DNA of 64,000 nt, taken from NCBI GenBank assembly GCA_016795485.1, contig JAEUHM010000027.1:124001-188000 (forward strand). The letters are read 5' to 3'. The notes under the pieces were generated by a model, which saw only the letters and a list, made by a program, of their open reading frames with translations, was not told where the DNA came from and searched no databases. This stretch comes from Verrucomicrobiaceae bacterium. GTDB taxonomy: Bacteria; Verrucomicrobiota; Verrucomicrobiia; Verrucomicrobiales; Verrucomicrobiaceae. The first letter of the stretch is position 1. The number at the start of each line of letters is the position of its first letter. Shown here piece after piece: positions 35,510 to 46,492 of the stretch. Made by a program: the position numbers and the translations under genes.

Positions 35510-35675
35510 AGCCTTAGGCTCGCCCACGCACCTCTGACACACTAACGGACATGCGGAAGCAAATCAGCGCTTCTCTTTTCTCCTACGCCGTGGTAGGAAG
35601 GCAACGATGTCACTAGCGGCTCGAGTGCGGGCCATGCTGGTTTGGCTCCGTTCAACTCACTACTTCTCTTTCTCC

Positions 35676-38600
35676 ATGAGTATTTCTACTATTCGGTCCT
35701 TTGTCGTGTTCGGGCTTTTAGGGTTTACCTCCTTTGCGAACGCACAGCTCCAGTTGGTCACGGACATTCACCAGGGCACCAACCCAGGCCAATCATCCCC
35801 AGACCAGTTCACGCAACTGGGAGCAATAACTCTATTTGCTGCGACATCCGGTGCTGAAGGACGTGAACTCTGGAAGACAGATGGAACAGAAGCCGGGACG
35901 GTGTTGGTGAAGGACATTCGGTCTGGATCACAGAGTTCGTCGCCTCGGTTCCTGGCCACGATTGGCTCCACGCTCTATTTTTCCGCCAATGACGGAAATA
36001 CAGGTGCTGAGCTGTGGAAGACCGATGGCACCGAAGCCGGCACAGTGATGGTGAAAGACATCATGCCCGGCATCGGAGATGGCTGCGGTGTGGAGGCTGC
36101 TGTGATGGGCACGACACTGATCTTTGCTGGCAGGAACTCTGAGGGCAACACGGAGGTGTGGAAGAGTGATGGCACCTCTGGAGGCACCGAACTGGTAAGG
36201 GATATCCGCTCCAATGGAGTCAATCCAGGGTCGGGACCGTCGAGCTTCCTGACGGTGTCTCCTTCTTTGGTGCTGTTCATCGCCGAGGGCGACTCCACAG
36301 GTCGTGAACTTTACAAGACGGATGGAACACTCGCAGGCACCGTTTTGGTGAAGGACATCCTGACGGGCAGTTCATCGAGCACCATTCAGGGCATGACCTT
36401 GCTGGGGAGCACTGTCTTTTTTGGTGCGCGTGATTCCGCCAGCGGCTACGAGCTGTGGAAGAGCGATGGCACCAACGCTGGTACAGTTCTCGTCAGGGAC
36501 ATCATCGTTGGCGCTGCCACGGGTGCGCTCGCCTCTCCTGGGCGTATTGCCGCCATGGGTGGCCACATTTACTTCACCGCTAACAGTTCCACTGGCAACC
36601 CTGAGCTGTTCAAGTCAGACGGCACGTCAGCCGGTACTGTGTTGCTTAAAGAGATCAACGCGAGCACGGCTCAGTTTACTGGCGGCTCCAACCCGACTTC
36701 CCTGACGGTAGTAGGCTCTACGCTGTATTTCATGGCTACGGATGGCAATTTTGGCGTGGAGCTTTGGAAGAGCGATGGCACCAACGCTGGCACAGTGCAG
36801 GTGAAAGACATTCAGCCAGGCACCGGCTCAGGCGGTGCAGTACCAGGAGCAGGCACGCCCCCCACTGCGCTTTCTGTTGTCGGCAGCACCATCTACTTTT
36901 ACGCAACGGACGGCACCAACGGTGGTGAACTGTGGAAGTCAGACGGCACATCGGGAGGCACCGTCATGGTAAAGGATTACACCCTTGGAGCAGGATCGTC
37001 TCAGATCACGAACATGAGAGCAGCCGGTTCCTCGGTCTTCTTCTCTGCCATCCAACCTGACGGCGGCACAGAACCCGTGATAAGTAACGGCATGGCAGCA
37101 GGCACAGGACTGCTTTCTGAAATCGGTGATGGAACCGCAGATAGCAGCCCTTCCCATCTCGTCGATGCAGGTGGCCGTCTCTTCTTCTCCGCAGTCAGCA
37201 ACACCCAAGGCAGGGAGTTGTGGGTGAGTGACTCCGGCGGCGCTCACCTTGTGGTAGACCTTACCACAGGCACAGAGGCGGATACCATCCGCGGCATCGC
37301 CAACGTCCTGGGCACCCCCTTCTTTGGTGCGGAGGCAGATGTTAGTGGTGGAAACTACGCCCTTTTCACCAGTGACGGCACCGCCCTTGGCACACGGCGC
37401 GTGGGTGTTGGCTTCCCCGGTCCTTTCTTTGACGACTCCTGGGGCGGAAACTACCAAACGGTCGGCAATCGACTCTACTACATCGGCGAAACAACCGCGC
37501 TCGGTCAGGAACTCTGGGTCACCGATGGCACACCTTTCGGCACTTATTTGGTCAAAGAACTGGGGGCTGGATCTCAGGACGCCAGCATTGGGGAGATGGA
37601 GAGCGTGGGCAATAACCTATACCTTGTCGTCGAAGACGATGTCTATGGCAGGGAGCTATGGAAGTCCACCGGCACCGCTGCCAGCACTGTGCTGGTGAAG
37701 GACATCGTCCCGGACTCAAACTCAGATCCCTATGGCCTAACACCGATTGGCAGCTTCCTCTACTTCGGTGCCGATGGTGCCACGGGGAGCGAGATCTATC
37801 GCACCACAGGCACCGCAGCCAGCACTCGGCAGGTGGGCGAGATCAATGAAGGCGGCAGTTCATTCCCCAATGACCTCACCCCTCTGCCAGACGGCACCAT
37901 TCTATTCTCCGCCTTTAGTTTCATTCCTCCAAGCAACACCGTGTCACGCGGGACGGAGCTCTGGAAGTATGCCCCTGGCTCCACCGTGCCCGTGTTGGTA
38001 AAGGACATCGCGGCGGGCACAGCCTCATCGCTCCCCTCCGGTCAGTTTCGGCGCGGCAATGACAAGTATGCGTTCGCCGTCATGGGTGGCTATGCCTACT
38101 TCAGTGCTGAAACTCCCAGCTCTGGAAGGGAACTATGGCGCAGTGACGGCTCCGATGCAGGCACCACGATGGTCAAAGACATCATGCCGGGTGCAGATGA
38201 CAGCAACCCGATGCACATGGTCGTGGCAGACGGCGCGCTCTATTTCTCAGTAAACTCCAATGGCTCCAGCCAGATCTGGATGTCCGACGGCACAGATGCG
38301 GGCACCGTCCAGGTAGACAATCAGCTCTCCTCCATCTCATCCCTCACCCTCTCGGGCGATGATCTCTACGTGGTGGGCACCCGCTCAGACGTAGGCCTTG
38401 AGCTCTTCAAACTCGCCGGAGTGCGCACTTCCCCCTTCACCATCTCGCAGCATCCCATGGATCAAAACATCACTCCAGGTTCCGCGTTGGATCTCTCCAT
38501 CGCACTCACCGCACCCGTGGGCACCCTTACCCAGTGGCGCAGAAACGGCATCGCCATCCCAGGAGCCACCAGCCTGACCTACCGTGTCGCTAAGGCATCC

Positions 38601-40670
38601 GAGGCAAATGAAGGCACCTATGATGTGCTCATTCGCAGTGGCGACTATGAGACCCTAACCGATCCCGCTGACGTACTCGTGGGAGATCCGCCCACGGTCA
38701 CCATCACCAGTCAGCCGCAGGAGATCCTTTGCCTCACCGGAGCCACAGCCGTGTTTCAGGTAGCCTTCTCCAGCCAGACGTCTGCGGTGGTTCAGTGGTT
38801 TAGAGGCAGCACCTTACTGCCAGGCGAGACCAACCCCACCCTCACCCTTACTGGCGTCACCCTTTCCGATGCCGGCCAATATCAAGCCAAGATCACCAAC
38901 AGCCGCGGCACCGTCTCGTCCAAAGCCGCGCAACTCGCCGTCGTTGAGTCAGCCACCACCCTCGTCCCAGCCAAGATCAATAGTAAAGCCAGTGCCAAAC
39001 TCAGGTTCGCTGGCACCGGACTGAAGTTCCTTTGGCAGGATGGGAGCAATCCGCTCAGCAATGGCGGCGGCATCGGTGGAGTCACCACCTCCGCCCTCAC
39101 CTTCAGCAAAGTCACCAACAACGAGGTCGGCAACTACAACTGCCGCGTCATGCTCGGCTCCCAAGCAGTTGTTAGCGGACTCTACAACCTCCAGATCGCC
39201 AGCGCTCCCATCATGGTCGTTATCGTCCCCCAGCTAGATGCCGTCATCAGCCAAAACCTGAACATCTCCGTGGCCAGTCTCCTCTTTCAGAACAACTTCA
39301 TCACCACCCCGTGGAATGTACCCACCAGCTTCACCGTCAGCGGACTGCTCAAGGGACTCAAATACGATCCCGTCACCATGAGCATTGTCGGCAGACCCAT
39401 CGATGGCATCGGCTTGAACACCCTCACCATCACCGCATTCAACGTGGCAGGCCCATCCTCGTCAGTCACCGTCAACCTCGCCATCGCGGCCTTCCCCACC
39501 ACCGTGCCAGGAGAGTTTCGCGCCGTCTCCACCCGCGACACCGCCGTCAACGCCAATCTTGGCAACGCCGTCCAGTTCAACATCAGCGCGATAGGCGTCA
39601 TTACAGGCAAAGTGTTCCATGGGAAGACCAGCTACGGCTTCACCGGTGCAGTCGATACCCTCCCTAACACCACCACCTCCACCGCCACCATCTCTGTCCC
39701 ACGCAAAAACAAGTCAGCCCTCCAGCTAACATTGAACATCGACCACACGGGCGGACAAGCCACCGGCAGCATCAATGACGGAGCCGCCAGCAGCACCTTC
39801 ACCGCTCACCGCGCCAACTGGTCCAGCTCATCACTTGCCACCTCCTTTGTCGGAGCCAACACCGCCGTCTTCCAGATCAGCAGCGGCCTACTGGGCGACA
39901 ACGCCTATCCCCAGGGCGACATCATTCTCACTGCCACCGTCACCAGCCTTGGCGTCATGAACGGAGTCACCCACTTCCCAGATGGCACTCGCACCACCTT
40001 CTCCATCTTGTTAGGCAATGATGGGTCATGCTCCACCTACATCAGCGCTTGGCTAGACACCGGCAGCCTCCTTGGAGACGGCACCCTCACCAGCGGCACA
40101 CGCCTCCTAGACGGCACCCTCACCTTCTTTAAAGCCAACCAGCCAGCCAGCAGCACCACGCGCAGTTTCAAATCAGGCTTCCCCCTGCACAACCGCACCC
40201 TCATCGGCGGCCCCTGGGTCAAACCCACGCCCACCAGCCTCCTGTTAGGCGTTAGCGATCCAGGAACACCCACCGCTCCAGAGAACACCGCCATCACCTT
40301 CACCTACGGCGGCATCGAGCACTCCTTCCTCGCCGTAGCCAACCAATACACCGAAGGCGTCCGCATCAAAGCACCCGCCAGCACCCTCGCCCCACCTCCC
40401 TCAGGGTCCAACCCAGGCAAACTCACCATCAGCCTCGATGCTAACACCGGAGAGTTCAGCGGCACCTTCAGCACCCTCGACCCCAATCCCGTCAACCTCA
40501 GTCAAAACCTCCCCCGCACCGCCAACTTCAAAGGCGTCTTCGTCCAGCGCATCAACAAAGCCCGCGGCTACTTCAATCTCCCCCTCCTCCCAGCCCCCCT
40601 CCCCGGCCAACCCAACGCCAACAAGACAGAAATCCCCAGCGGCCTGTTAGAACTCATCCCAGACATGTAA
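35676..40670 (+). CDS. giant secreted ELWxxDGT-repeat protein with Ig-like domains
   Basis: A 1664-residue surface protein; the ATG at 35676 gives a signal peptide ending FANAQ. Residues about 30-920 are built of roughly twenty ELWKTDGTEAGTVLVKDI-type repeats, the ELWxxDGT family found in Verrucomicrobia and other marine or soil bacteria. Residues about 930-1110 contain two Ig-like domains (QWRRNGIAIPGATS and VQWFRGSTLLPGETNP). A further cadherin-like domain and Verrucomicrobia-type C-terminal beta-domains (FKGVFVQRINKARGYFNLPL) end the protein. It is probably exported and attached to the outer surface. The 3' half of the gene is C-rich (ACC, CTC, GGC codons). Confidence 0.9.
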   Translation: MSISTIRSFVVFGLLGFTSFANAQLQLVTDIHQGTNPGQSSPDQFTQLGAITLFAATSGAEGRELWKTDGTEAGTVLVKDIRSGSQSSSPRFLATIGSTLYFSANDGNTGAELWKTDGTEAGTVMVKDIMPGIGDGCGVEAAVMGTTLIFAGRNSEGNTEVWKSDGTSGGTELVRDIRSNGVNPGSGPSSFLTVSPSLVLFIAEGDSTGRELYKTDGTLAGTVLVKDILTGSSSSTIQGMTLLGSTVFFGARDSASGYELWKSDGTNAGTVLVRDIIVGAATGALASPGRIAAMGGHIYFTANSSTGNPELFKSDGTSAGTVLLKEINASTAQFTGGSNPTSLTVVGSTLYFMATDGNFGVELWKSDGTNAGTVQVKDIQPGTGSGGAVPGAGTPPTALSVVGSTIYFYATDGTNGGELWKSDGTSGGTVMVKDYTLGAGSSQITNMRAAGSSVFFSAIQPDGGTEPVISNGMAAGTGLLSEIGDGTADSSPSHLVDAGGRLFFSAVSNTQGRELWVSDSGGAHLVVDLTTGTEADTIRGIANVLGTPFFGAEADVSGGNYALFTSDGTALGTRRVGVGFPGPFFDDSWGGNYQTVGNRLYYIGETTALGQELWVTDGTPFGTYLVKELGAGSQDASIGEMESVGNNLYLVVEDDVYGRELWKSTGTAASTVLVKDIVPDSNSDPYGLTPIGSFLYFGADGATGSEIYRTTGTAASTRQVGEINEGGSSFPNDLTPLPDGTILFSAFSFIPPSNTVSRGTELWKYAPGSTVPVLVKDIAAGTASSLPSGQFRRGNDKYAFAVMGGYAYFSAETPSSGRELWRSDGSDAGTTMVKDIMPGADDSNPMHMVVADGALYFSVNSNGSSQIWMSDGTDAGTVQVDNQLSSISSLTLSGDDLYVVGTRSDVGLELFKLAGVRTSPFTISQHPMDQNITPGSALDLSIALTAPVGTLTQWRRNGIAIPGATSLTYRVAKASEANEGTYDVLIRSGDYETLTDPADVLVGDPPTVTITSQPQEILCLTGATAVFQVAFSSQTSAVVQWFRGSTLLPGETNPTLTLTGVTLSDAGQYQAKITNSRGTVSSKAAQLAVVESATTLVPAKINSKASAKLRFAGTGLKFLWQDGSNPLSNGGGIGGVTTSALTFSKVTNNEVGNYNCRVMLGSQAVVSGLYNLQIASAPIMVVIVPQLDAVISQNLNISVASLLFQNNFITTPWNVPTSFTVSGLLKGLKYDPVTMSIVGRPIDGIGLNTLTITAFNVAGPSSSVTVNLAIAAFPTTVPGEFRAVSTRDTAVNANLGNAVQFNISAIGVITGKVFHGKTSYGFTGAVDTLPNTTTSTATISVPRKNKSALQLTLNIDHTGGQATGSINDGAASSTFTAHRANWSSSSLATSFVGANTAVFQISSGLLGDNAYPQGDIILTATVTSLGVMNGVTHFPDGTRTTFSILLGNDGSCSTYISAWLDTGSLLGDGTLTSGTRLLDGTLTFFKANQPASSTTRSFKSGFPLHNRTLIGGPWVKPTPTSLLLGVSDPGTPTAPENTAITFTYGGIEHSFLAVANQYTEGVRIKAPASTLAPPPSGSNPGKLTISLDANTGEFSGTFSTLDPNPVNLSQNLPRTANFKGVFVQRINKARGYFNLPLLPAPLPGQPNANKTEIPSGLLELIPDM

Positions 40671-41069: not shown

Positions 41070-42491
41070 ATGGTGAAAACGCGCCCAGAACAAGATGTAT
41101 CTCGTTCACAGCAAGCAGAGCTGTTTGTGATTCCTTTGGGCGATGAACGGCAGATACTGTATGCGCCTCTTCAACGAGTCGCAGTCATCGCTGACGTTGG
41201 GTTGGTAGAAGCGGTGAAACAGGCGAGGGCAGGCCGAGGTGAGGGCATTCGCCCTCAAGACGGCGATCTGATAAATGCTTTTCGTGAGTTAAGGCTGGTT
41301 GGGTATGCAGACGAGGTCATGCCAATCACCGAGTTCCAAGGCACACCCATGCCGACCGCCCTCACCTTGTTCCTCACTACGGCTTGTAATCTGCGATGCA
41401 CTTACTGCTACGCATCCGCAGGAGACACCCCGGTCAAAGGCATGCCCTTTGAGGTGGCTAAGCGAGGAATCGACTTCATCTGTGCCAATGCAAAGAAGAC
41501 TGGCTCCCCTAAGATCGGGCTGGCATTTCATGGTGGAGGCGAGCCTACGGTCAACTGGCGGACTCTTACCTCTGCACACGCATACGCATCGGAACGTGCC
41601 CATGCACTAGGCCTGGAACTAGAGTCTGCTTTGGCAACGAATGGAGTGCTTTCAGAAGCACAGCTCACTTGGGCGATCTCCAATCTTACAGGTGCCAGTG
41701 TATCCTTTGATGGATTGCCAGCGACTCATGACCGCCATCGTCCGTTGGCAACCGGAGGCGGGTCTAGTGAGCGCGTTATGGAGACCCTCCGCCGCATGGA
41801 CGAGGCAGGGTTTCCTTATGCGGTGCGCGTCACCGTCACAGCAGACCAGATTCATCGCTTGGTCGACTCCATCGGTTTCATCACGGAGCGGTTCAAACCG
41901 GAGTCCCTCCAGGTGGAGCCAGTTTATCAGTTGGGTCGAGGGCTAGGTACCGAGTCAGCTGAAACCAAAGCGTTCATTGAGGCTTTCCGTGCCGCCAAGG
42001 CACGGGCAAGGCAAAATGGGGCTGATTTATTGTTCTCCGGTGCGCGGTTGGATGCCCTGACCAATCACTTCTGCGGCATCAGCCAGGATGGTTTTGCGCT
42101 TACGCCTGATGGCAACGTCTCTGCATGTTATGAAACATTCAGCGAGTCCCAGCCCCTGTCCCCAACGTTTCACTATGGTAAACCCGCCACTGCTGGAAGC
42201 GGGTACGACTTCGACATGCAGCGCCTTGAGCATCTTAGGCATCAGGCAGTGCAGCACAGGCCTTACTGCTCTGGATGTTTTGCAAAGTGGCATTGTGCAG
42301 GCGACTGTTTCCACAAGGCCATCTCACAATCCGGGGGCACTGAGTTCAAAGGCTCGGCGCGCTGTGATGTCATACGCGAGCTGACCAAAGACCAGATTCT
42401 GGATGAGATTACAGCCGCTGGTGGCGTTTATTGGCAGGCCGACCGCCACGGGTATGCCCACGCACCCAAACCCATAGACAGCCTCTTATGA
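41070..42491 (+). CDS. radical SAM/SPASM peptide-maturase-type enzyme
   Basis: A 473-residue enzyme if started at the ATG at 41070; the frame is open further upstream. Residues about 15-80 form an N-terminal region common in peptide-modifying radical SAM proteins (LFVIPLGDERQILYAPLQRV). The radical SAM cluster motif CNLRCTYC is at residues 106-113 (CxxxCxxC), with FHGGGEPTVNW (GGE motif) at 153-163. The C-terminal SPASM region has cysteines at 335 (FCGISQDG), 353 (SACYE), 400, 403, 409, 413 and 432, enough for two auxiliary clusters. It is translationally coupled to the next gene (ATGA, 4-bp overlap), so the product of that gene is the first candidate for its substrate. Confidence 0.88.
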   Translation: MVKTRPEQDVSRSQQAELFVIPLGDERQILYAPLQRVAVIADVGLVEAVKQARAGRGEGIRPQDGDLINAFRELRLVGYADEVMPITEFQGTPMPTALTLFLTTACNLRCTYCYASAGDTPVKGMPFEVAKRGIDFICANAKKTGSPKIGLAFHGGGEPTVNWRTLTSAHAYASERAHALGLELESALATNGVLSEAQLTWAISNLTGASVSFDGLPATHDRHRPLATGGGSSERVMETLRRMDEAGFPYAVRVTVTADQIHRLVDSIGFITERFKPESLQVEPVYQLGRGLGTESAETKAFIEAFRAAKARARQNGADLLFSGARLDALTNHFCGISQDGFALTPDGNVSACYETFSESQPLSPTFHYGKPATAGSGYDFDMQRLEHLRHQAVQHRPYCSGCFAKWHCAGDCFHKAISQSGGTEFKGSARCDVIRELTKDQILDEITAAGGVYWQADRHGYAHAPKPIDSLL

Positions 42492-44203
42492 GTGATCAAC
42501 CCGAGTATCATTTGGCAGAAGTCCAGCCCGGTGGGAGCACTGGTAAGGTAGAGTCAGCTTCCCTTTCTGACGTTGTCGAACGGGCAACAGGCAGCCGCCG
42601 GGACGTGTTCAAGATTGGACTGGCAGGTAGCAGCTTACTAGGAGCACTCGGCCTTACTGGGTGCAGTCAGCGGATTGCGCATCAGTCGTTTGCGAGCCGA
42701 ATCGACTCGCTGGTATTCAGCCCAGATGGCACCACCCTCGCCGCCGTTGGGGACAACAATGTCGTCAAAATGTGGCGCATCAAGGAATCAGAGTTGCTCT
42801 GGAGCCAGCCTATCGCCACCAACGTAAACACTTGGAGCCATGCCGCTCACTCACTTGAGTTCATCCCCTCTGGGAAGCACCTACTCGCCTGTGTCAAAGG
42901 CGCTGTTTTTCTCCTTAGCACGGATGGTCGCCAAACGTCAAAGAAATGGGACACTTTCGGCAACTCGCCCATCAGCTCTTTGATCACCCTTAATGGACGT
43001 CAGCGGTTCGCGGCCGTGTTACGTCAGGAACACTCTCCCCAGAATCCTGCACTGACTCTATTGGACGTGGTAGAAGGAGAAGGCGGTACGACTCTTCAAC
43101 CCGTTGTCATCGTCAACTCGGCTGAAGACAGTACGGGCGCGCTCCACCTCACGCATGACGCCAAGTTTGTTATCAGTGTAACAACCAGTGATTACATACG
43201 GGTCTGCGATCCTGCCCGCACCATCGCTTACACACGGTCATTCGGTTCTCAACTTCTGGCAGTAGCTCGCCAAACTCAATGCGTTTGCTTTGCAAGTAAC
43301 AGCCCGTCCTCTGGTCCCATCGGCATCTCAAAGTTGTCGATCCATTACTTTGGCAGGAGCGTTTCCGAGCGCATACACAAGTCTGACCTTGCTACGGACG
43401 GAGCGAGTTCGCTCTGCGTTTCTCCGGACGGACGCAGTGCTATTAGTTCTCACTCGACAAAGGAGAACAGCAGGGCCGGTTGCTTGATAATGTGGGACAT
43501 AGAACGTGGTACAAGCGTTGTTTTTGGCTATACAAACCACCCTCCAGCTGTTTCGCTCCTTGTGGACCCCACAGGCAAGCAGGTTGCAGCTACTTTGCCA
43601 TTGAACGCCAACCGAGGTCCTAGGTTACAGATCTATTCACTTCAGACTCTGAAGCCAACGGTGGAGATAGTTGGTGAGGGACAAATGACTCGCCACATCT
43701 TTAGCCCCGACGGTTCAGTCATGGCCACCTGCCATCGTGCTGAGTATGGCAGCGGGGAAACCATTAAACTCTGGAGCACAGCAGACGGCAAGTATCTCGG
43801 CTACCTCCCAGACCCAGCGGTTCCACCACCTGACCGGCCCCCATCACAATCATCATCAGGCGGCTCATACGGCGGCAGGCGTTGTGTGTGCATTCCCGTC
43901 AGGTCAGATCGAAATGAGAAAACCGCAGTGACAGATGTGGATGAAGCAGACGTGCTTCAGAAGCTTGCCACCCTTCCCATCCATCACTGGAGATACAAAG
44001 AAGAGGACGCCGCCGTGACCCATCTCGGCCCCATGGCACAAGACTTTTCCAGCACCTTTGGACTTGGCGATAGCGACAAGCACATCCACCCAGCGGATGC
44101 ACTTGGAGTTGCACTTGCCGCAGTCAAGCAACTTACCCGTATCACCAGCCAACAAGCCCAAGAGATCGCCGAACTAAGACGACTCGTGAAGCACCAAGAA
44201 TAG
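42488..44203 (+). CDS. Tat lipoprotein with WD40-like repeats and a C-terminal peptidase S74 domain
   Basis: A 571-residue protein. GSRRDVFK (residues 35-42) is a twin-arginine motif and LTGC (cysteine 59) a lipobox, so it is an exported lipoprotein. Residues about 68-440 are WD40/quinoprotein-type repeats (LVFSPDGTTLAAVGDNNVVKMW, then CVSPDGRSAIS, HIFSPDGSVMATC). The C-terminal 100 residues match the intramolecular chaperone/peptidase S74 of phage tail spikes: SDRNEK, VDEADVLQKLATLPIHHW, THLGPMAQDFSSTFGLGD and DALGVALAAVKQL, ending in a coiled coil. Just before the S74 serine (S473) lies a glycine/serine stretch and RRCVCIPVR (cysteines 466 and 468). Its start overlaps the radical SAM gene by 4 bp. 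Confidence 0.82.
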   Translation: MSDQPEYHLAEVQPGGSTGKVESASLSDVVERATGSRRDVFKIGLAGSSLLGALGLTGCSQRIAHQSFASRIDSLVFSPDGTTLAAVGDNNVVKMWRIKESELLWSQPIATNVNTWSHAAHSLEFIPSGKHLLACVKGAVFLLSTDGRQTSKKWDTFGNSPISSLITLNGRQRFAAVLRQEHSPQNPALTLLDVVEGEGGTTLQPVVIVNSAEDSTGALHLTHDAKFVISVTTSDYIRVCDPARTIAYTRSFGSQLLAVARQTQCVCFASNSPSSGPIGISKLSIHYFGRSVSERIHKSDLATDGASSLCVSPDGRSAISSHSTKENSRAGCLIMWDIERGTSVVFGYTNHPPAVSLLVDPTGKQVAATLPLNANRGPRLQIYSLQTLKPTVEIVGEGQMTRHIFSPDGSVMATCHRAEYGSGETIKLWSTADGKYLGYLPDPAVPPPDRPPSQSSSGGSYGGRRCVCIPVRSDRNEKTAVTDVDEADVLQKLATLPIHHWRYKEEDAAVTHLGPMAQDFSSTFGLGDSDKHIHPADALGVALAAVKQLTRITSQQAQEIAELRRLVKHQE

Positions 44204-44570: not shown

Positions 44571-45599
44571 TCAAGTCACATTAACCTGCACTTCCGGGCT
44601 AGCAGGTCCATCTCCACCCTCGTTGTAGGGGATGGCCTTTACGAGTACAATAGCTCCAGCAGTGAAGCCTGGCAGTGTTTTCTCCAGGCCCTCAGCCGTG
44701 CCAGAGTTGATGAAGTCATCGTCCACCACTGGGCCGGTGGTGCGCTTGGTCATCAGGCGTGTGCCCGTCATGCGCGTGGCATAGGTCCACTCCAGGTGAA
44801 TCTTACCACTACCTGCCGCCGTGCCCGTCAGTCCGGCGATTCCTTCTGGCGCGCTCGGGTTGGCGGGAATCGTGAGACCAAAATCTTCCCAACGTGGGTC
44901 ATCTTCAGCGATCAGCGTGCCCAGTTCCTCGATCAGGCCACGGATGCGTTTGCGCAAGGTTTTGAAGGCAGCGTCACGTCCATTGACCTTAGTGGCTTGG
45001 GCCGTCTTCGCGTTGCCCCAGGCGGCACGCGCATCCGAGAGTTGACCGTAAGCCGCCGTGCAAGCGGCTGCCGTGGCACCCAGGTCTGCACTTTCACGTG
45101 CGGGATTGAGTGTGAAGTAAGACGAGAGCGAGTCCAGAAGCGACAAACGCTTGTCCTGCTCAGCAGGCACTGCCGTGCTCTGGTCTGGGAAGCCCGTAGC
45201 CTCCCATGCAGGGCCCCAGAACTTGCCCAGTTGGTTCACCAGACGCAGGCGGCAGTTAGCCAGCACCTCCGTGATGGAGGCATCCACCACCTTCAGCGCG
45301 TCACTCGTGCTGCCCACCGCTGCTTTGGCCGCGCCCAGGTCCAGTTGCCCGTTCTTCAGTGCCAGCATCGCAGCGCGCATCACCGCCTCCGTGTTTTGTT
45401 TGATGCCGATGATTAGCTCATGCGTGTGGCAGCCGTCCGCCATGCGATCTGCGAGTGCGCGGGCTATATCAGGATTCTCAGGTGTTGGGTTAGAGGCCAT
45501 GGCTTTACGATTGATTCTACGTTTGCGTGTGGGAAGCAGCACAGACGGCCCAGGGGCATCCCACACCCCCTGGTCCCAGACGCCCTCATCCCAGTTCAT
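44571..45599 (-). CDS. protein of unknown function with C-terminal fibronectin III-like domain
   Basis: A 342-residue protein beginning MNWDEGVWDQGVWDAPGP, with no signal peptide. The middle is helical (DIARALADRMADGCHTHEL through LLDSLSSYF and AAFKTLRKRIRGLIEELG). The last 90 residues look like a fibronectin III or similar beta-sandwich (IAGLTGTAAGSGKIHLEWTYAT, then VLVKAIPYNEGGDGPASPEV). I do not recognise a named family. It belongs to a minus-strand cassette with the HTH protein upstream and the 76-residue protein downstream. A phage-structural or spore-coat role is only a guess. Confidence 0.65.
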   Translation of the reverse strand: MNWDEGVWDQGVWDAPGPSVLLPTRKRRINRKAMASNPTPENPDIARALADRMADGCHTHELIIGIKQNTEAVMRAAMLALKNGQLDLGAAKAAVGSTSDALKVVDASITEVLANCRLRLVNQLGKFWGPAWEATGFPDQSTAVPAEQDKRLSLLDSLSSYFTLNPARESADLGATAAACTAAYGQLSDARAAWGNAKTAQATKVNGRDAAFKTLRKRIRGLIEELGTLIAEDDPRWEDFGLTIPANPSAPEGIAGLTGTAAGSGKIHLEWTYATRMTGTRLMTKRTTGPVVDDDFINSGTAEGLEKTLPGFTAGAIVLVKAIPYNEGGDGPASPEVQVNVT

Positions 45600-45601
45600 A
45601 A

Positions 45602-46165
45602 CTGGGCATTAGGCGCAAAAATCTTCGTCGGGCAGGTCCCCCCTCTCGGGAAGCTGCATCGCCCGTCCTACAAAGGCCCCAGCTCACTCCGGGACTCGAA
45701 TCGGACGACCGGAAAAGGGAACAGGAAAGTCGGGATGCCTTTCCAGCTCGTCCGACAGCACTTCCGGAGACTCCGGCAGTCCTTCCAGCTCGTCCGACGA
45801 CACTTCCGGAGACTCCGGCAGTCCTTCCAGCTCGTCCGACAACACCCCCGGAGACTCCGACAGTCCTTCCAGCTCGTCCGGCAACACCCCCGGAGACTCC
45901 GGCAGTCCTTCCAGCTCGTCCGGCAACACCCCCGGAGACTCCGACAGTCCTTTCAGCTCGTCCGACAGCACCTCCTGAGACTCCGGAGGTCCTTGCCGAT
46001 GATCCGACGAGGCATACCGAGACTCCGGAACCGTTTTCCGACGACCAGAAAACCGTCTCGGAGCAACCCCTCCCCCAGGCCCTAAAACCGCCTCCGCCCC
46101 AGGAGGAAACGGTCCCTGTTTTTGGTAAGCCGACGGTCATCATGGAGACTACCGTGCACCCAGAC
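45602..46165. other. gap with ambiguous coding potential around a 42-bp tandem repeat
   Basis: Between the FN3-like gene and the HTH gene, several frames are open at once. Minus frame 45684-45971 reads 14-residue acidic units L(S/P)DELEGL(P/S)ESP(G/E)V and uses codons like the neighbouring genes. Minus frame 45586-46230 reads Gly/Val/Arg units. Plus frame 45420-46085 reads FQLVRQHPRRLRQS units, and another plus frame (45602-46237) reads Pro-rich PARPTTPPETPTVL units but has no ATG, GTG or TTG near its start. No frame has a clear ribosome site. I do not commit to a gene; the acidic minus frame is the best candidate. Confidence 0.5.
45743..45994. repeat. 42-bp tandem repeat, six copies
   Basis: Units start at 45743, 45785, 45827, 45869, 45911 and 45953. 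The core is CCAGCTCGTCCGACAACACC followed by CCCGGAGACTCCGACAGTCCTT, with point differences between copies; the sixth copy is the most diverged. Because 42 is divisible by three, every frame keeps its phase over the array and stop codons are absent in several frames. There are no spacers of different sequence, so it is not a CRISPR array. Confidence 0.92.
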
Positions 46166-46492
46166 TTAAGTTTGACCATGCCGGAGTACCGGCATAGCCC
46201 CCTCCAGGAGCTTCTCCGCCAGCGCCACAAGTTTTGAGTGCTTGATGCAGATCCCCTCCGCTACTCGATCGATCGTATCCTGCATGGGGTAAGACTTCAG
46301 CTCCAGCAAGTCTGCAATCGTCTGCCGCGGCACGTGAGAAGCCGCAGCCAAGCCACAGATGGAGAGATTCTTTTTCTCCATCAGCCAGTTAAGCACCACC
46401 ACCTGAGCCGCACAAATATCGCGCCTCCCATCCATCCGGACCTTCTCCAAAGCCAAACGCAAAGACAGGCAGAAATGCGGCTTCCTTTTCAT
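46166..46492 (-). CDS. small helix-turn-helix DNA-binding protein
   Basis: A 108-residue protein started at the ATG at 46492 (MKRKPHFCLSLRLALEKVRM); the frame is open 18 codons more upstream. The middle has a XRE/Cro-like helix-turn-helix: VLNWLMEKKNLSICGLAAASHVPRQT, with the recognition helix around VPRQTIADLLELKSY, followed by DTIDRVAEGICIKHSKL. It may regulate the FN3-like cassette downstream on the same strand. It begins a run of minus-strand genes with the tandem-repeat gap in between. Phage repressor or toxin-antitoxin origins are possible but not supported by neighbours. Confidence 0.72.
   Translation of the reverse strand: MKRKPHFCLSLRLALEKVRMDGRRDICAAQVVVLNWLMEKKNLSICGLAAASHVPRQTIADLLELKSYPMQDTIDRVAEGICIKHSKLVALAEKLLEGAMPVLRHGQT

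Follow-up and report, generated by a model that had tools for sequence, protein, structure and literature searches.

The window analysed here, a stretch of 64,000 nucleotides from a Verrucomicrobiaceae bacterium, contains a gene for a radical SAM enzyme directly followed by a gene for a protein that combines a twin-arginine (Tat) signal and a WD40 propeller with a cysteine motif and a phage-type autocleavage domain (peptidase S74). This raises the question whether the enzyme modifies the protein encoded next to it and, if so, at which site. A sequence-only reading had proposed that the enzyme acts on the cysteine-containing segment before or during S74 autocleavage. As this reading had stated, the two genes overlap by 4 bp, stop codon of the enzyme gene and start codon of the partner gene sharing the sequence ATGA at 42488-42491. 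The features are (coordinates in the window):

41070..42491, + strand, rSAM1-family radical SAM/SPASM peptide maturase, 473 aa (Radical_SAM Pfam, 3.8e-13)
41112..41288, + strand, predicted RRE/PqqD-like leader-binding N-terminal part, about residues 15-73 (secondary structure of the model)
41385..41408, + strand, CNLRCTYC, radical SAM cluster motif (translation, invariant cysteines)
42072..42365, + strand, SPASM cysteines C335, C353, C400, C403, C409, C413 and C432
42488..44203, + strand, partner protein, 571 aa, with leader, Tat signal, lipobox, WD40 propeller, Cys box and S74
42488..42592, + strand, leader before the Tat motif, P-x-[FY]-x-L (PEYHL); P5 and L9 nearly invariant (alignment A2)
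42593..42664, + strand, twin-arginine signal SRRDVFK ending in the lipobox LTGC59; R37 and R38 invariant (A2; inspection)
42677..43813, + strand, WD40 beta-propeller (Pfam; all-beta model, residues 72 to 440)
43850..43903, + strand, Ser/Gly linker and Cys box SSSGGSYGGRRCVCIPVR, proposed modification site (alignment)
43904..44200, + strand, peptidase S74/intramolecular chaperone autocleavage domain with S473-K478 dyad and C-terminal coiled coil (Pfam)

That the enzyme is of the SPASM type was correctly read: in its translation CNLRCTYC (C106-x3-C110-x2-C113) is followed by seven SPASM cysteines in the spacing C335-x12-G-x4-C353, C400-x2-C403-x5-C409-x3-C413 and C432, and the ten cluster cysteines are invariant in an alignment across 27 homologues. 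The best match in NCBIfam is PapB (NF047865; 8e-39, 133.8 bits, family cut-off 340 bits) and the second best QhpD (TIGR03906; 7e-38, 130.4 bits, cut-off 453 bits); with scores far under both curated cut-offs, classing the enzyme as PapB or QhpD was rejected. In a profile search of PDB sequences the SCIFF maturase CteB (PDB 5WGG, 5WHY) ranks first (7e-49). The model of the enzyme (mean pLDDT 87) aligns with CteB over its whole length at about 19% identity (Z 32.5-32.7, 395 residues, model residues 14-450), the alignment beginning at model residue 14-15, which corresponds to residue 1 of the CteB chain. The order strand-strand-strand-helix-helix at the N-terminus of the full-length model fits an RRE/PqqD-like fold, and this part may be a leader-binding RRE domain.

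CteB is a thioether-forming maturase (ranthipeptides), PapB is the freyrasin maturase, which acts on PapA, a small peptide containing C-x3-D motifs, and QhpD functions in the maturation of quinohemoprotein amine dehydrogenase. The thioethers made by PapB join Cys to Asp or Glu, and PapB copes with many spacings, with 0 to 6 residues separating Cys from Asp (PMC9413430); QhpD makes intra-protein thioethers, its substrate being a ribosomal protein and not a short peptide (PMC8172795). Thioether chemistry is preferred for the window enzyme because all three relatives make thioethers, the fold common to CteB and the enzyme being in itself no proof of it, and because PapB accepts so wide a range of spacings, the geometry of the Cys boxes does not settle the acceptor residues. 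The substrates of SCIFF maturases are also Cys-rich, but they are short peptides and not Tat-exported propeller proteins; the boxes of the window family are not C-x3-D as in PapA; and QhpD has a protein as substrate, as proposed for the window enzyme, whereas no CTQ-type substrate is seen here and the presumed substrate bears its own Tat signal.

The domains of the partner protein were also found as described, with SRR at residues 36-38 placing the twin arginines before a hydrophobic stretch, the lipobox LTGC59, WD repeats recognized by Pfam (2.5e-8) and by the model, and Peptidase_S74 (1.3e-10). The Tat signal is called from its motif, the NCBIfam Tat model (TIGR01409) giving no match to the window partner; a homologue, L021b, scores above the cut-off of this model. 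RRCVCIPVR indeed lies directly N-terminal to the S74 residue Ser473. Its CxC motif (C466 and C468, within GGSYGGRRCVCIPVR) holds as a feature of the tail but is not unique to it, as there is a second CVC (265-267) in the WD40 part. In the model of the partner pLDDT is below 50 over residues 446-519, the Cys box included, a confidence too low for any reading of the structure of the box. When residues 61-472 were shuffled, C.C[IVLM].V appeared anywhere in 0.3% of the trials; the real test of a chance origin of the motif is its conservation in other genomes.

By means of a genome scan and sampled searches of whole genomes, relatives sharing 31-57% identity with the enzyme were detected in 30 other genomes from the phylum of the window and from Acidobacteriota, Nitrospirota, Pseudomonadota, Chloroflexota and Gemmatimonadota, the window's genome being the sole representative of its genus in these searches. 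They are rare: in the window's phylum 5 of 388 genomes carry one at E 1e-40 (the window included), in the phylum of L006 9 of 247 at 1e-50, and in the order of the Accumulibacter genome one of 300. A phage origin of the enzyme was considered and rejected, there being no relative among 50,697 phage records.

A gene for a Cys-box partner lies within about 6 kb of the enzyme gene in 24 of the 30 other genomes, as it does in the window. The remaining six are four Beggiatoaceae (L005, L007, L008, L010), L009 and L061, the last with its partner on another contig of the same genome (L092). In L007 and L008 an exported-looking protein of 307-323 aa is encoded just upstream of the enzyme, in place of the Cys-box partner. 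In L009 (Gemmatimonadota; L009:7382-7972) a protein of 196 aa, rich in Arg and Pro and with many cysteines at its C-terminus, adjoins the enzyme and is followed by an HPr-kinase-like gene.

In 16 enzyme-bearing genomes the DNA pattern CxC[ND]xVCxC gave 10 matches, all 10 at the enzyme locus, and the reversed pattern, run as a control in the same genomes, gave none. A box-1 profile gave 20 matches in 25 enzyme-bearing genomes; 19 of these matches lie no more than 5.5 kb from the enzyme, and the one remaining, on a different contig, is a Tat-WD40 Cys-box protein. Since the genomes of both searches were picked for carrying the enzyme, the linkage holds within them and is no statement on absence elsewhere. 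A phylum-wide search with the pattern CxC[ND]xVCxC yielded matches in nine further genomes; these were rejected as family members and taken as chance because the 3-kb loci around them (L035-L043) contain no enzyme relative and few of the matches fall in a sizeable reading frame. The sequence-only reading would have fallen if homologues of the partner were not linked to such enzymes or if the Cys motif were not conserved; both points were examined, and it withstood them. Homologous pairs, with a substrate gene beside the enzyme gene, a conserved leader and a separate core motif as in RiPP systems, exist in at least five bacterial phyla, and therefore the enzyme probably modifies the Cys motif.

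The partners are usually built in the order leader, Tat signal, WD40 propeller and Cys boxes. The leader, about 35 residues long in the window, has the consensus PxFxLTRVxxxGxxxxPEIVPV, which is less alike in the more distant partners; its motif P-x-[FY]-x-L is common to relatives of quite different architecture, including Tat proteins of 108 aa from two genomes that belong to the same family as the window (L018, L019), and the arginines R37 and R38 are invariant in 14 homologues (A2). The C-terminal boxes are of two types, CGSPIPPGAVCTCNCVPG and CTC[ND]xVCTCxPV, the first box having the consensus ITYTLPCGSPIPPGAVCTCNCVPG. The window box aligns with the C-terminal GGGGSYQRCVCMAVRCRRT of L021 and with the CTCNRVCTCIPVP-type boxes of L054, L077 and L080. 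The residue after the cysteine is N or D in most boxes, which would suit PapB/QhpD chemistry, and Ile in the window. Box 1 is absent from the window genome (no match of the A3 profile in G000); with one CxC and no box 1, the site in the window may be reduced or decaying. Exceptions to the WD40 scaffold are an unrelated 422-aa protein (L093), the 108-aa proteins and a small Tat protein from Caballeronia (L094); the loci L023 and L059 encode small Cys-rich proteins with no evident Tat signal. Because the boxes are found together with leader and Tat signal on WD40, 422-aa non-WD40 and 108-aa proteins alike, they are regarded as a modular tag, and this tag is called the substrate site mainly because leader and tag persist while the scaffold changes. 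A lipobox-like cysteine is present in some partners only, so lipid anchoring is not general. No NCBIfam model was found to cover the Cys-box proteins, and a literature search of partial coverage returned no relevant paper joining radical SAM, RiPP and WD40 or Tat. On a plasmid of Chlorohelix (Chloroflexota; L093:3450-5973) two adjacent genes encode Tat proteins, one with and one without WD40 repeats, which have leader and Cys-box tail in common.

The Beggiatoaceae enzymes, which are 47-49% identical to that of the window and for which neither motif, profile nor flanking reading frames revealed a Cys-box partner, would agree with the view that the two genes merely share an operon, the enzyme having another target and the cysteine tail being incidental. 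This view is highly improbable in light of the 19 of 20 genome-wide box matches that adjoin the enzyme and of the constancy of leader and boxes on differing scaffolds. Another explanation is that the Cys boxes bind metal or an iron-sulfur cluster in an exported protein with a redox or metal-handling function, for which the enzyme builds or installs the cofactor with no peptide crosslink being made. CxC and CxCxC motifs in such density are typical ligands, proteins loaded with a cofactor are well served by Tat export and the sequence of box 1 is very constant; the closest solved structure, however, is that of thioether-forming CteB with its leader-binding domain, the leader before the Tat signal is kept despite the change of cargo, as expected for peptide maturases, and the cysteines differ greatly in number, the window having a single CxC and L055 many repeats. 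We thus hold a pure metal site to be unlikely and prefer the modification of the Cys boxes by the enzyme.

The third point to be weighed is the proposed coupling to S74. The S74 domain of the window partner (PF13884; residues 473-521, 41.9 bits versus a gathering score of 22) has S473 and K478 in the i,i+5 spacing and ends in a helix (535-570 in the model) assigned to the C-terminal coiled coil; a sequence search found no solved relative of this region. The same Ser-Lys spacing is found in MyRF (S587/K592), where the dyad is necessary, and in endoNF (S911/K916), for which it has been reported (PMC8326128), and from this spacing cleavage before Ser473 is predicted. In Pfam match, Ser-Lys spacing and coiled coil the domain resembles that of phage endosialidase, K5 lyase, T5 fibre and MyRF, but there it is preceded by a beta-helical spike or a DNA-binding domain and here by a Cys box on a WD40 lipoprotein. 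The arrangement CxC-[IV]-P-V-x-S74, which was to be looked for elsewhere, recurs in three Acidobacteriota (L054, L077 and L080, all CTCIPVP), where, as in the window, a single residue separates the CxCIPV motif (here CTCIPV) from the start of S74; in one of these genomes (G975, with L054) it is the only S74 match genome-wide. The S74 of the window is 44-45/80 identical to those of the three Acidobacteriota versus 33/80 to another S74 in the window's own genome. On the enzyme tree the S74 label needs two changes, and the starred branches are compatible with one origin; the fusion may thus have arisen twice, or once with transfer or loss.

The exact position of S74 in four genomes of two phyla, together with this likeness across phyla, speaks for a strict coupling, in which the enzyme would act before or during autocleavage and thereby release a modified peptide or protein. 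Yet most partners have no S74, so the modification cannot generally need it, and in other proteins cleavage by S74 requires trimerisation and the Ser-Lys dyad, not an upstream modification (PMC8326128). As a general rule the coupling did not hold up, and we consider its strict form quite improbable. Several homologues having no S74 end at or near the motif (CICIPVRQ in L057, CTCVPIV in L058 and L060, CNCIPTR in L003b, and CVCMAVRCRRT in a further one; L003a and L004 extend beyond it), so that autocleavage by S74 would recreate their C-terminus. S74 is therefore better seen as a removable addition.

The best explanation of these findings is that the window pair belongs to a RiPP-like system of wide distribution. 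We consider it likely that the enzyme modifies the Cys boxes of its partner proteins, and that the modification consists specifically of thioether links has about an even chance. The enzyme would bind the leader P-x-[FY]-x-L-x-R located ahead of the Tat signal and, before Tat export, alter the cysteines in the C-terminal boxes by radical chemistry, the likeliest product being thioether links to nearby residues in ranthipeptide or sactipeptide style. The modified carrier, in the window the WD40 propeller, would fold in the cytoplasm and leave via Tat, after which signal peptidase would remove signal and leader together, which would make a separate leader protease unnecessary; in the window this would be signal peptidase II at Cys59, and the protein would be anchored by lipid. 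In the window and the three Acidobacteriota S74 may trimerise the carrier and then cleave itself off before its serine, leaving a C-terminal CVCIPVR of the kind that several other members carry at or close to their natural end. The modified tip could be a structured, a protected or a metal- or redox-active surface tip.

Somewhat short of an even chance, and hence tentative, is the wider proposal of a general bacterial tagging system, in which a Cys-box tag on unrelated Tat scaffolds becomes a SPASM-crosslinked, possibly redox- or metal-active external tip, with signal peptidase as leader protease and S74 as a self-removing trimerisation cap in some lineages. To our knowledge, the substrates known for SPASM peptide maturases are mostly short peptides, QhpD being a known case with a larger protein; the substrate class here would be whole, folded, Tat-exported proteins. 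If true, a portable C-terminal tag apparently lacking an NCBIfam model occurs in at least five phyla and offers a testable link of radical crosslinking with protein export, and in some bacterial proteins a phage-type autocleavage domain is placed exactly beside the presumed modified site.

At seven loci (L024, L055, L056, L062, L066, L092, L093) Cys-box partners end in YW[HY]P[NT]. This tail is found at 7 of 7 loci that encode two further radical SAM enzymes besides the first (about 466 and 670 aa; for L092 one of these types was detected) versus 0 of 18 loci with the first enzyme only, some of the former also encoding a small PqqD-like protein. L059 has one extra enzyme and no such tail. Fisher's p of 2e-6, or 1e-5 with L059 counted as an exception, is only a guide because the loci compared are related and were grouped once the data had been seen. 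The association suggests that the extra radical SAM enzymes act on the tail end of these partners.

Two further observations concern the neighborhood of the gene pair. Just upstream (window 35607-40670) a secreted-looking protein of 1687 aa with many ELWKxDGTxxGT repeats and Ig domains is encoded. Downstream, at window 45586-46230, a tandem repeat (PDELEGLPESPGVL-like) is covered by overlapping low-complexity frames in both strands, and probably at most one of these frames is a real short gene.
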